The notes beneath the pieces were generated by a model that saw only the letters and a list, made by a program, of their open reading frames with translations, was not told the DNA's origin and ran no database searches. This document shows positions 19,354-23,035 of a stretch of 64,000 nt of DNA, piece after piece. The translations under genes were made by a program, and so were the position numbers. Source of the DNA: Alteriqipengyuania halimionae (lineage in GTDB: Bacteria > Pseudomonadota > Alphaproteobacteria > Sphingomonadales > Sphingomonadaceae); the NCBI RefSeq assembly GCF_009827575.1, contig NZ_WTYR01000001.1:2515001-2579000 (forward strand). Direction: 5' to 3'. The stretch's first letter is position 1. Each line of letters starts with the position of its first letter.

Positions 19354-19919
19354 GCAGTCTTCTCCGGGGCGCTTTCGCCCGTATCGTCCTTCGCATCGAG
19401 CAGCGAAGGGTCTTTCATGGGGTCCTTGTCGCTGAAGAAGAAGCTTCGCGCAAGGATGATGATGACGCCGAAAGTGATCGCGACATCGGCGAGATTGAAG
19501 ATCAGGAAAGGCCGGAAACTGCCAATATGGAGGTCGGCATAATCGACCACATAGCCGTAATTCACCCGGTCGCGGATATTGCCGAGCGCCCCGCCCAGGA
19601 TCAGCGAGAGCGCGGCGATATCCCAGCCGTTCTTCTCGCGCAGCATCCACACGAACACGATCACGGCAATCAGCCCGGTGACCCCGATCAGCATCATCTG
19701 CTGTTCCATGCTGTCGGCGCGGAACAGGCCCAGCGAGACGCCGTAATTCTCGGCCCAGGTCAGGTCGAAAAACGGGAGAACCTCGATCTGCCGCTTCTCG
19801 CGCAGCGCCAGCGGGCCGATCATCGACCATTTCACCAGCTGGTCGAGCACGAAGATGACGATCGCGAGCCCGAGACCCATCCAGCGCCGTTTCCACACCG
19901 CTTGGGACAGCACGCTCAT
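19350..19919 (-). CDS. lspA: Lipoprotein signal peptidase (signal peptidase II)
   Basis: Inner-membrane aspartic protease that cleaves prolipoprotein signal peptides after diacylglyceryl transfer. The 189-residue protein has four predicted membrane helices, near residues 14-34, 73-92, 99-118 and 139-160. The catalytic aspartates are D126 in the GNIRDRVNYGYVVDYADLH box and D145 in FNLADVAI. The early motif ENYGVSLGLF is also present, where the family usually has NxGxAFS. A charged C-terminal tail of about 25 residues extends past the last helix. It overlaps ileS upstream (four bases) and the DUF3035 gene downstream, in the widespread ileS-lspA arrangement. Confidence 0.96.
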   Translation of the reverse strand: MSVLSQAVWKRRWMGLGLAIVIFVLDQLVKWSMIGPLALREKRQIEVLPFFDLTWAENYGVSLGLFRADSMEQQMMLIGVTGLIAVIVFVWMLREKNGWDIAALSLILGGALGNIRDRVNYGYVVDYADLHIGSFRPFLIFNLADVAITFGVIIILARSFFFSDKDPMKDPSLLDAKDDTGESAPEKTA

Positions 19920-22900
19920 GCCGGGTCATCCAGCTTGGCGACGACGCTTTCGCAGCGATCGCACAGATCGCCGTCCTCGGCCACTTCGGGCAGGAGCCGC
20001 CAGCAGCGGCCGCATTTGTGGTCGTCGGTCCGGGTCACCTTGATCTCCTGCCCGCGTTTCACTGACGCGGTGATGAACAATTCGGCGAGGTCCTCGTCCG
20101 AGAACCCTGCGGGCACCGCATCGGCGGGCACCACGACATCGGCTTCGAGGCTGGACCGGATCGTCTTTTCGCGCCGCAGCGGTTCGATCGCTTCGTTCAC
20201 GTCCTCGCGCAGCTCGCGCAATGCGTCCCACCCCTTGGCGAGATCGTCATCGTGCCATTCGTCGGGCATCGCCTGCCATTCCTGCAGATGGATGCTCGCG
20301 GCCTCGGGATAGCGCGTGCCCCACACTTCCTCGGCGGTGAAGACGAGCACCGGCGCGGCATAGCGCACCAGCGCCTGGAACAGGTGATCGAGCGTGGTGC
20401 GATAGGCGCGGCGCGCGGTCCCTTCGGGATCGTCGCAATAGAGCCGGTCCTTGCGGATATCGAAGAAGAAGGCCGACAGGTCCTCGTTCGCGAATTCGAC
20501 CAGCGCGCGGGTATAGGCGTTGAAATCGAAGGCATCGACCGCGCGGCGCAGCCTGGCATCGAGCCCGGCCAGCAGGTGCAGCACGTAGCGTTCGAGCTCG
20601 GGCATCTGCGCCGGATCGACCGCTTCGCGTTCCGCATCGTAGCCATTGAGCGCGCCGAGGAGATAGCGGAACGTGTTGCGCAGGCGGCGATACTGGTCGC
20701 CCACGCCCTTGAGGATTTCGTCGCCGATTCGGTGGTCCTCGGTGTAATCGACCGACAGCGCCCACAGGCGGATAATGTCCGCGCCGTATTGCTCCATCAC
20801 CTTCAGCGGATCGACGGTGTTGCCGAGCGACTTGGACATTTTCATGCCCTTGTTGTCCATCGTGAAGCCGTGGGTCAGCACCGCCTCGTAGGGCGCGCGG
20901 CCGCGGGTGCCGCAGCTTTCGAGCAAGGAGGACTGGAACCAGCCGCGATGCTGGTCGGACCCTTCGAGATAGAGATCGGCGGGGCTGCGCAGCTCGGGCC
21001 ATTCGTCCGATTCGAGCACGAAGGCATGGGTGCAGCCACTGTCGAACCACACATCGAGGATGTCGCCGACCATTTCGTAATCGTCGGGGTTGCGATCCGG
21101 GCCGAGGAATTCGGCCGCGCGGCCTTCTTCCCAGGCATCGATCCCGTCGGTGCGGATGGCCGACTGGATGCGCGCATTGACCTCTGCATCGACCAGCAAT
21201 TCGCCAGTTTCGCGATGGACGAACAGCGCGATCGGCACGCCCCAGGCGCGCTGGCGGCTGATCAGCCAGTCGGGCCGGTCAGCCACCATCGATCCGATGC
21301 GGCGGCGGCCCTTTTCGGGCACGAAGCGCACGCGCCCGATCTCGGACATGGCGATCGAGCGCAGCGTGTTCTCCCCCTCTCCTTCAGGTGAGGGGGTCGG
21401 GGGGTGGGGGCTGGCAGGCGATGCTTCGCCCGGCTCCCCCACTCCCTCCGCGACTTCGTCGCTCCTCCCTCTCCCCTGAAGGAGAGAGGGCGTAAGATCA
21501 CCATCCATCCCGATGAACCACTGCGGGGTGCAGCGGTAGATGACCTTGGCCTTGGAGCGCCACGAATGCGGGTAGGAATGCTGGTAATCCGCGCTTGCGG
21601 AAAGCAGCGCGCCGGCCTCGCGCAGGTCCGAACAGATCGGGCCTTCGGGCGAATTGAACGGCTTGTTGATCACGCTGCGGCGACGTTCGTTGCCGTCTTC
21701 GCCCAGATCGTCGGCGCCGAGCCACAACCAGTCGTCGCGATAACGTCCGTCGCCCATGACGGCGAAGACCGGATCGATGCCGTTCGCCTTGCACAGGTCG
21801 AAATCGTCCTCGCCATGATCGGGCGCCATATGGACGATGCCAGTGCCGCTATCGGTGGTGACGAAATCGCCCGCAAGCATGGGGCGCGGCTTGGCGTAGA
21901 ACCCGCCGAGATGGTGCATCGGGTGGCGGACGATGGTGCCGGCTAGGTCTTTGCCTTTGATCGAATGAAGCATACGCTCGAATGGTGCCGAACGTTGTTC
22001 ACCAAGCCATTCGCCCGTAATCTCAAATACAGCATTCTTGGCACCGAGGTCACTTACATCGACGTTGGCAGCCAATGCATTCAATCTAGCCATGAAACTT
22101 GGCACGAGATCTTTTGCGATCAAAACCCGCCTGCCGTCAAAAGCAAGACCTGCTTCGTGCAATCGCTTCTCTGCTTCGTTCACATCGCCGGCGATCTCGC
22201 CACCAGACTTCCCGTCCGTTAACCCACTCAGGTCGACTACGAGCGAGAAAATCGCGTATTCAATCTCCGTCCCATAGGCGAGAGCCTGATTGACCGGGAT
22301 CGTCCAAGGTGTCGTCGTCCAAATCACCGCATGCGCGCCAACCAGTTCTTCGATCGGCGATTCCACGATCTCGAACGCGACGTCGATCTGCGGGCTGTCG
22401 GTCAAATCCTGGTATTCGACCTCGGCATCGGCCAGCGCGGTTTCCTCGACCGGGGACCACATCACCGGCTTGGCACCGCGATAGAGCTGGTTCGTCTCGG
22501 CGAATTTGTGGAGCTCGCGCACGATGTCGGCCTCGGCTTCGGGCCGCATGGTGAGGTAGGGCTTGTCCCACCGTCCGCCGATGCCCAGCCGCTGCAGCTG
22601 CTCGCGCTGTACGTCGACCCAGTGCTGCGCGTATTCGCGGCATTCCTGCCGGAACTCGGCCGCGGGGACTTCCTTCTTGTCCTTCTTCTTCTTGCGGTAC
22701 TTTTCCTCGACCTTCCATTCGATCGGCAGGCCGTGACAATCCCAACCGGGCACATAGGGCGCGTCCTTGCCCAGCAGCGACTGGGTGCGCACCACCGTGT
22801 CCTTGAGCACATGGTTCAGCGCATGGCCGATATGCATGTCGCCATTGGCATAAGGCGGGCCGTCATGGAGGATGAACTTCTCGCGGCCCGCGCGGGCTTC

Positions 22901-23035
22901 GCGCAAGCGTTCGTAAATCCCGATCTCTTCCCAACGCGCCAGAATGCCCGGCTCCTTCTGCGGAAGGCCGGCTTTCATCGGGAAATCGGTCTTCGGCAGG
23001 AAAACCGTATCTTTGTAATCGCGCTTTTCGGACAT
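19916..23035 (-). CDS. ileS: Isoleucyl-tRNA synthetase with in-frame repeat insertion
   Basis: Class I aminoacyl-tRNA synthetase that charges tRNA-Ile and edits valine. The 1039-residue protein has the HIGH motif in PPYANGDMHIGHALNHVLKD, a CP1 editing domain (GTGIVHMAPDHGEDDFDL), the KMSKS motif (KGMKMSKSLGNTVDP), an anticodon-binding domain, and a C-terminal zinc finger (KCGRCWRLLPE with LCDRCESVV). It is about 40 residues longer than expected because residues about 515-554 (DNA 21373-21490) are translated from a REPIN-like inverted hairpin pair. The peptide is low-complexity, with HPPTPSPEGEGE. Residues about 258-338 have much lower GC than the rest. Both lie outside the HIGH and KMSKS motifs, and the frame is intact, so the enzyme is presumably functional. 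Overlaps lspA by four bases. Confidence 0.96.
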   Translation of the reverse strand: MSEKRDYKDTVFLPKTDFPMKAGLPQKEPGILARWEEIGIYERLREARAGREKFILHDGPPYANGDMHIGHALNHVLKDTVVRTQSLLGKDAPYVPGWDCHGLPIEWKVEEKYRKKKKDKKEVPAAEFRQECREYAQHWVDVQREQLQRLGIGGRWDKPYLTMRPEAEADIVRELHKFAETNQLYRGAKPVMWSPVEETALADAEVEYQDLTDSPQIDVAFEIVESPIEELVGAHAVIWTTTPWTIPVNQALAYGTEIEYAIFSLVVDLSGLTDGKSGGEIAGDVNEAEKRLHEAGLAFDGRRVLIAKDLVPSFMARLNALAANVDVSDLGAKNAVFEITGEWLGEQRSAPFERMLHSIKGKDLAGTIVRHPMHHLGGFYAKPRPMLAGDFVTTDSGTGIVHMAPDHGEDDFDLCKANGIDPVFAVMGDGRYRDDWLWLGADDLGEDGNERRRSVINKPFNSPEGPICSDLREAGALLSASADYQHSYPHSWRSKAKVIYRCTPQWFIGMDGDLTPSLLQGRGRSDEVAEGVGEPGEASPASPHPPTPSPEGEGENTLRSIAMSEIGRVRFVPEKGRRRIGSMVADRPDWLISRQRAWGVPIALFVHRETGELLVDAEVNARIQSAIRTDGIDAWEEGRAAEFLGPDRNPDDYEMVGDILDVWFDSGCTHAFVLESDEWPELRSPADLYLEGSDQHRGWFQSSLLESCGTRGRAPYEAVLTHGFTMDNKGMKMSKSLGNTVDPLKVMEQYGADIIRLWALSVDYTEDHRIGDEILKGVGDQYRRLRNTFRYLLGALNGYDAEREAVDPAQMPELERYVLHLLAGLDARLRRAVDAFDFNAYTRALVEFANEDLSAFFFDIRKDRLYCDDPEGTARRAYRTTLDHLFQALVRYAAPVLVFTAEEVWGTRYPEAASIHLQEWQAMPDEWHDDDLAKGWDALRELREDVNEAIEPLRREKTIRSSLEADVVVPADAVPAGFSDEDLAELFITASVKRGQEIKVTRTDDHKCGRCWRLLPEVAEDGDLCDRCESVVAKLDDPA
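21373..21490. repeat. REPIN-like inverted hairpin doublet inside ileS
   Basis: Left hairpin 21373-21396: arms CCCCCTC and GAGGGGG with nested CCT/AGG. Right hairpin 21467-21490: arms CCCTCTC and GAGAGGG, again with nested CCT/AGG. The core CTCTCCTTCAGG in the left copy recurs exactly, in reverse complement, in the right copy, so the pair are inverted copies separated by 70 bases. This is the layout of REPIN elements mobilised by RAYT transposases. No RAYT gene is in the window. The element is read through in frame. Confidence 0.72.
22021..22260 (-). other. Low-GC segment within ileS
   Basis: By hand count these 240 bases are about 52% GC (29, 29, 34 and 32 G+C in successive 60-base rows), while surrounding coding sequence is visibly in the mid-60s. 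It encodes residues about 258-338 at the start of the editing domain (YAIFSLVVDLSG to AVFEITGEW). Codon choice shifts towards A/T-ending codons. This could be a recombined patch from another donor or a lineage-specific insertion. Confidence 0.55.

Follow-up and report, generated by a model that had tools for sequence, protein, structure and literature searches.

The ileS gene of Alteriqipengyuania halimionae, which codes for isoleucyl-tRNA synthetase, contains an in-frame palindromic insert. We consider this insert to be a non-autonomous copy of a mobile element, small and palindromic, the larger relative of which carries a DUF559 gene between inverted hairpins of the same kind (probability about 0.6). 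Strong DUF559 genes proved to be bracketed by this hairpin type across the Pseudomonadota, the presence of DUF559 tracks the number of hairpins in the genomes of the Alphaproteobacteria, and one loop of ileS is a recurrent target of similar repeats, with many entries in related species.

The host gene lies at positions 19916-23035, on the minus strand, of the 64,000-nucleotide stretch of DNA that was analysed (the window). Its product of 1039 aa matches PF00133 with an E value of 2.5e-129 and scores above the cut-off of TIGR00392. An earlier note had described a pair of inverted hairpins of 24 bases each, with 70 bases between them, inside this gene, and both the coordinates and the arms could be confirmed by inverted-repeat analysis. 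The arm at 21373-21396, which is the 3' one in gene direction, reads CCCCCTCACCTGAAGGAGAGGGGG; the 5' arm at 21467-21490, also compared with the arm of a DUF559 element, reads CCCTCTCTCCTTCAGGGGAGAGGG. The two are 88% complementary over their 24 nt, and each of them is itself a hairpin, in which two half-arms of 11 nt, 91% complementary, are separated by 2 nt. The common core CTCTCCTTCAGG is indeed present in both arms on opposite strands, on the plus strand in the first and on the minus strand in the second. Inverted-repeat searches and folds revealed further inverted arms (21400-21410 and 21436-21446) in the 70-nt spacer (21397-21466). The geometry is therefore, as was claimed, that of a REPIN-like doublet, two close inverted repeats able to form a long hairpin. 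All these elements lie on the minus strand together with the whole insert (21373-21490), through which the ileS reading frame stays open, adding residues of about 515-554.

The DNA fold of the insert has a z value of -5.5 and the RNA fold one of -7.2, and in both cases equal stability was reached in 0 of 200 shuffled sequences. The fold is strong because the insert consists of palindromes, and RNA structure as the whole explanation was rejected. No Rfam family was detected at the insert at gathering thresholds, the two tRNAs found being elsewhere in the window. A target-site duplication of the kind left by MITE-type elements could not be read at the insert, and the loops of sibling ileS genes are too diverged for comparison. 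The stretch of ileS at 21950-22270 is a second variable region: its G+C content is 51.1%, compared with 64.4% for the window, and alignments with many relatives break there.

The loop harbouring the insert was examined in 108 distinct IleS proteins, nearly all from the Sphingomonadales. The peptide encoded by the insert occurs in none of the other 107, and in G001, the same-genus genome represented by a Blastomonas marina contig, the loop is short at this position, in line with the proposal of an insertion that has no counterpart in the nearest relative and is not general in IleS. Seven proteins (L025, L026, L055, L093, L099, L101 and L112), the hairpin carrier L099 among them, were left out of the loop count because the gene was partial or the contig a duplicate. 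The remaining 101 loops comprised 30 short ones, 41 long ones with no recognised palindrome and 30 with inserted palindromes, which belong to several families; the labels of five rows (L013, L032, L033, L094, L105) were changed by hand, and L090 was classed as short although it has one imperfect hairpin. Purine/pyrimidine hairpins like those of A. halimionae were present in 20 of the 101, the CTTCGACAGGCTCAG-type palindrome in seven, a CCAGC..GCTGG-type palindrome in two and one further kind, labelled by eye, in one. The loci with families other than the purine type are L012, L053, L059, L068, L094, L104, L105, L075, L076 and L013.

On a FastTree phylogeny of IleS computed without the loop, the state of the purine-type hairpin needs at least 12 changes, that of CTTCGACAGGCTCAG 6 and that of any palindrome 16, as parsimony minima in which gain and loss are not told apart. 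Hairpins are also concentrated at this site: in 72 ileS loci their density was 0.93 per kb in the loop and 0.039 per kb elsewhere, and 12 of the 72 had a hairpin in the loop. Of the 28 hairpins outside the loop, ten were no more than about 1.6 kb away from the site and lay in ileS itself or at its ends. Open frames contained 27 of these 28 by the long-open-frame mask, a count that carries no weight, stop-to-stop frames being too generous in DNA so rich in G+C.

These data bear on the reading in which the insert is not a mobile element but a vertically kept functional extension of ileS, or a hairpin controlling its mRNA. The strong folding of the strand speaks for such a function, as do the 41 long loops with no recognised palindrome, since length itself may be useful. 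However, the number of changes on the tree, and close relatives that have no insert (L047 as against L010) or carry none where others have another palindrome family (L057 as against L053 and L104), make this reading very improbable.

AlphaFold2, run with 27 sequences, gave a mean pLDDT of 74.7 for IleS, with values below 50 at residues 517-554, between a strand (505-509) and a helix (558-568). A disordered loop at the surface is thus the most likely form of the insert in the predicted structure. Among solved structures, the IleRS that matches best has a short gap, between its chain residues 416 and 423, at the place of query residues 512-562. The supposition that it is tolerated as a surface loop held as far as the lack of structure in the model is concerned; its position at the surface is what we infer from it.

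A DNA search of the genome (E <= 0.001) found two other partial matches to the insert, at 1271212 and 2603889. The expectation of other genomic copies was thus borne out in part, the pair being rare yet not unique. The hairpin pattern CCCTCTCCN{2,10}GGAGAGGG occurs once in this genome and the pattern CCCTCYCCN{2,10}GGRGAGGG four times, the ileS arms being one base off both as read by eye. At the first match (C1:1271212-1271700; L002/L151) a DUF559 gene is situated between trpB and trpA, with a hairpin on either side, the inverted arms scoring 31; its ORF extends across the downstream hairpin and ends just beyond it. The 5' arm of the ileS doublet together with one neighbouring base is identical to the 5' arm of this element at 24 of 25 positions. 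The best match of the ileS insert was the DUF559 element of its own genome in only four of six genomes, each represented by one DUF559 locus though some have several. Since the same kind of hairpin brackets DUF559 in its own genome, the ileS insert fits the DUF559-associated hairpin element. The DUF559 protein (P0001) matches PF04480 (E 5.5e-38) and the solved structure 3hrl, named 'Endonuclease-Like Protein' (E 2.9e-23). From these similarities it is related to a PD-(D/E)XK endonuclease-like protein and would be a putative nuclease. The second match (L003, C1:2603889) is a further hairpin doublet, the neighbours of which are ORFs resembling, by eye, a gene-transfer-agent cluster.

The trpB-trpA junction was found in several states. 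In A. halimionae and in G022 it contains hairpins plus DUF559, in G032 (L224) a hairpin doublet with no gene, in G030 a single hairpin, and in several relatives (e.g. L203, L204, L206, L207 and L221) no insert. In G001 (L202) about 700 bases of other sequence are present between trpB and trpA, at the position of the DUF559 unit. Similar DUF559 units were found on replicons of a Sphingomonas parapaucimobilis strain, one at the sufB-sufC junction, the other where a GatB/YqeY-domain gene meets dnaG. The junction states look like the trace expected of a mobile unit, the movement of which would be read from the states compared rather than from events watched. Relatives of P0001 were present in 45 plasmid records. 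Three of these regions were inspected, one of them from Qipengyuania, and hairpins were read by eye at the DUF559 gene in the other two, both from one Sphingomonas strain. Phages as carriers were rejected, relatives of P0001 being found in only 3 of 50,697 phage records.

In order to measure the association, purine-rich hairpins with a stem of 7 and a loop of 2-10 were scored within 250 bp of the domain match. Among the pooled strong DUF559 loci of the Pseudomonadota, 87 of 93 had such a hairpin within this distance and 48 of 93 had hairpins on both sides. The loci of relatives gave 25 of 26 evaluable, 18 of them on both sides, after omission of 4 of 30 DUF559 loci (and of 3 of 20 Y1_Tnp loci) lying too near to contig ends. 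For the class Alphaproteobacteria the values were 25 of 29 evaluable and 11 on both sides, with 1 of 30 loci left out, and the phylum search yielded hairpins at all 28 newly fetched loci (13 on both sides), including 16 of 16 outside the class. Nine of ten further hand-picked copies had a hairpin, six of them on both sides. Most loci were taken by best score, which favours the hairpin-linked kind. Ten weak DUF559 paralogues of relatives, picked by hand (L262-L271, E 1e-13 to 2e-16), had hairpins in no case (0/10), and thus the link belongs to one kind of DUF559. At L242 the inverted flanks of DUF559 match with a score of 98, the highest scored, making it a candidate recent copy.

The trpB and ileS genes of relatives served as a control, these pooled gene controls being drawn from relatives only. 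A hairpin was found at 9 of 92 of them, two of the nine being due to a neighbouring DUF559 element, and on both sides at 0 of 92. Random places in ileS loci gave 77 of 3000 on either side and 1 of 3000 on both. Off-gene places in the same loci gave 11 of 1608 on either side and none on both, and those in the class loci 0 of 1451; outside the class the background was higher, with 173 of 1415 on either side and 46 on both. The reading of the hairpins as terminators was rejected, since both-side hairpins were found at 48 of 93 DUF559 loci versus 0 of 92 trpB and ileS genes. The same controls weigh upon the view that DUF559 and the hairpins merely gather in operon junctions, DUF559 spreading by homologous recombination between repeats and not acting on them. 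The occurrence of DUF559 units at trpB-trpA, at sufB-sufC and between the GatB/YqeY-domain gene and dnaG would agree with it. Yet hairpins on both sides are absent from the trpB and ileS controls and hairpins altogether from the weak DUF559 loci and from 17 Y1_Tnp loci (0/17), and the number of hairpins across genomes is left unexplained, so that we hold this view to be improbable.

The number of hairpins was compared in 289 genomes of Alphaproteobacteria, using the pattern CCCTCYCCN{2,10}GGRGAGGG and taking as strong a DUF559 match of E 1e-20 or better. Of the 67 genomes with strong DUF559, 54 had at least three hairpins, compared with 22 of the other 222 (Fisher p 3e-28, odds ratio 38, kinship ignored), which means that 200 of the 222 genomes with no strong DUF559 had fewer than three. 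At least ten were present in 37 of 67 versus 9 of 222, and when only genomes of at least 2.5 Mb were compared, in 31 of 56 versus 7 of 91 (p 2e-10, kinship again ignored). Of the nine genomes with at least ten hairpins and no strong DUF559, two have weak matches and some belong to DUF559-carrier genera; six genomes with strong DUF559 have zero matches to the pattern. Contrasts within genera were mixed, g70, g60 and g95 speaking for the link and g81 and one member of g121 against it. Among 24 order-mates outside the family, at least ten CCCTCTCC hairpins were counted in six of the seven with strong DUF559 and in 0 of 17 others. In the family itself the link is a loose one: some DUF559 match was found in 35 of 35 genomes, while 13 of the 35 have no CCCTCTCC hairpin, seven of these 13 having strong DUF559. 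In at least three of the seven (G010, G020 and G024) other purine-rich hairpins lie beside DUF559 (L169, L162 and L155).

The earlier note had assigned the doublet to REPINs mobilised by RAYT transposases. The inverted geometry is that described for REPINs in the relevant part of PMC3116915, and one Y1_Tnp match exists in the genome. The search for PF01797 covered A. halimionae itself, 59 relatives and the 289 class members. None of the 17 evaluable Y1_Tnp loci of relatives, out of 20, had these hairpins, the own locus L040 standing outside this count, and at least three hairpins were present in 15 of 59 genomes with Y1_Tnp versus 61 of 230 others (p = 1). The only Y1_Tnp match of A. halimionae (L040, C1:379005-379325) has a TGA inside it, and in the sequence as read the GTAG-type tag, as defined in PMC3733652, is absent from the foot of the ileS arms. 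RAYT as the mobiliser was thus rejected on the bare Y1_Tnp loci and the lack of co-occurrence, and the RAYT-REPIN reading is strongly disfavoured, its chance being slight.

The co-occurrence suggests instead that DUF559 moves the repeats. As a Vsr-like PD-(D/E)XK endonuclease, it would recognise or nick the hairpin ends, which may be acted on as single-stranded DNA, perhaps during replication. Such an action would let the doublets copy to new sites, with or without the gene, and the ileS copy would be one of the doublets spread in this way. In-frame copies would survive in ileS, and have repeatedly come and gone there, because the loop tolerates extra residues. Somewhat short of an even chance, in our estimate, is the broader proposal built on this scheme, namely that the DUF559 nuclease mobilises palindromic repeats of one class throughout the phylum, in parallel to RAYT and REPINs but with an unrelated fold, and that copies of these repeats have made an essential tRNA synthetase longer, repeatedly and at one site.

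The main rival turns the direction around: the doublets would be older and moved by another agent, and DUF559 would be a free-standing homing endonuclease landing in them. In its favour, Vsr-like homing endonucleases are known, the L224 doublet lies between trpB and trpA with no gene in it, and nine genomes with at least ten hairpins lack strong DUF559. However, the scarcity of hairpins where strong DUF559 is missing (200/222 with fewer than three) is accounted for better by a gene that drives hairpin number, with the caveat that a homing gene would likewise be missing where its landing sites are missing. We regard this rival as unlikely, though the most serious of those considered.

Several known systems come close to the elements described here. 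In the REPIN/RAYT system (REPtron), as the passages of PMC2817692 and PMC3116915 dealing with it describe, inverted doublets of short palindromes are accompanied by an enzyme gene flanked by two inverted copies. The ileS and DUF559 elements share both features, but the flanked gene is DUF559 and not a Y1 tyrosine transposase, and the ileS arms have no GTAG. The Rickettsia palindromic elements (RPE) are in-frame palindromic inserts inside conserved genes according to part of a review (PMC10969869), and these, like the intragenic CGTC/GTAG REPs, resemble the ileS insert in being in-frame palindromes in conserved genes. A study of 2013 (PMC3733652) reports, in its sections on REPs, that numerous genes contain intragenic copies, those for tRNA synthetases in E. 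litoralis and S. alaskensis among them, with the synthetase unspecified; some of the ileS loops may be instances of what was described there. The CGTC REPs described there have a stem of 8-9 bp almost always beginning with A/T pairs, a loop of 4-5 nt, a CGTC, TGTC or CCTC tag and mostly a CCA tail, a form which the ileS arms do not fit. Those sections mention neither a DUF559 partner nor recurrence at one ileS site. The Caulobacter intergenic repeats (CIR) are likewise repeats of Alphaproteobacteria, and strictly intergenic in the review's account of them (PMC10969869).

On the side of the protein, VsrA of Caulobacter has the same DUF559 domain as P0001. The passages of PMC12907096 on it present a Vsr-like endonuclease of the PD-(D/E)XK superfamily, a putative mismatch-repair nuclease functionally linked with a methyltransferase; their description differs from the present case in that it contains no flanking hairpin repeats. 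A link between DUF559 and repeats was not found in the open-licence literature, which was searched for DUF559 with inverted repeat and for Vsr with repetitive extragenic palindromic and leaves subscription papers mostly uncovered. Thus in-frame palindromic repeats are already known, and the association with DUF559 appears to be new, as far as we found no paper on it.

The CGTC class of REPs is common in Alphaproteobacteria and, according to PMC3733652, apparently has no dedicated transposase. The strong and specific link between a single hairpin class and a single nuclease family provides a candidate mobiliser open to bench tests, and if it is true that DUF559 moves the repeats, the reading would be a categorically new one. 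The association with hairpins might also explain why the spread of DUF559 is patchy. With different repeats inserted into one essential protein, the ileS loop amounts to a natural insertion series, which may be useful for the question of how new protein segments originate.
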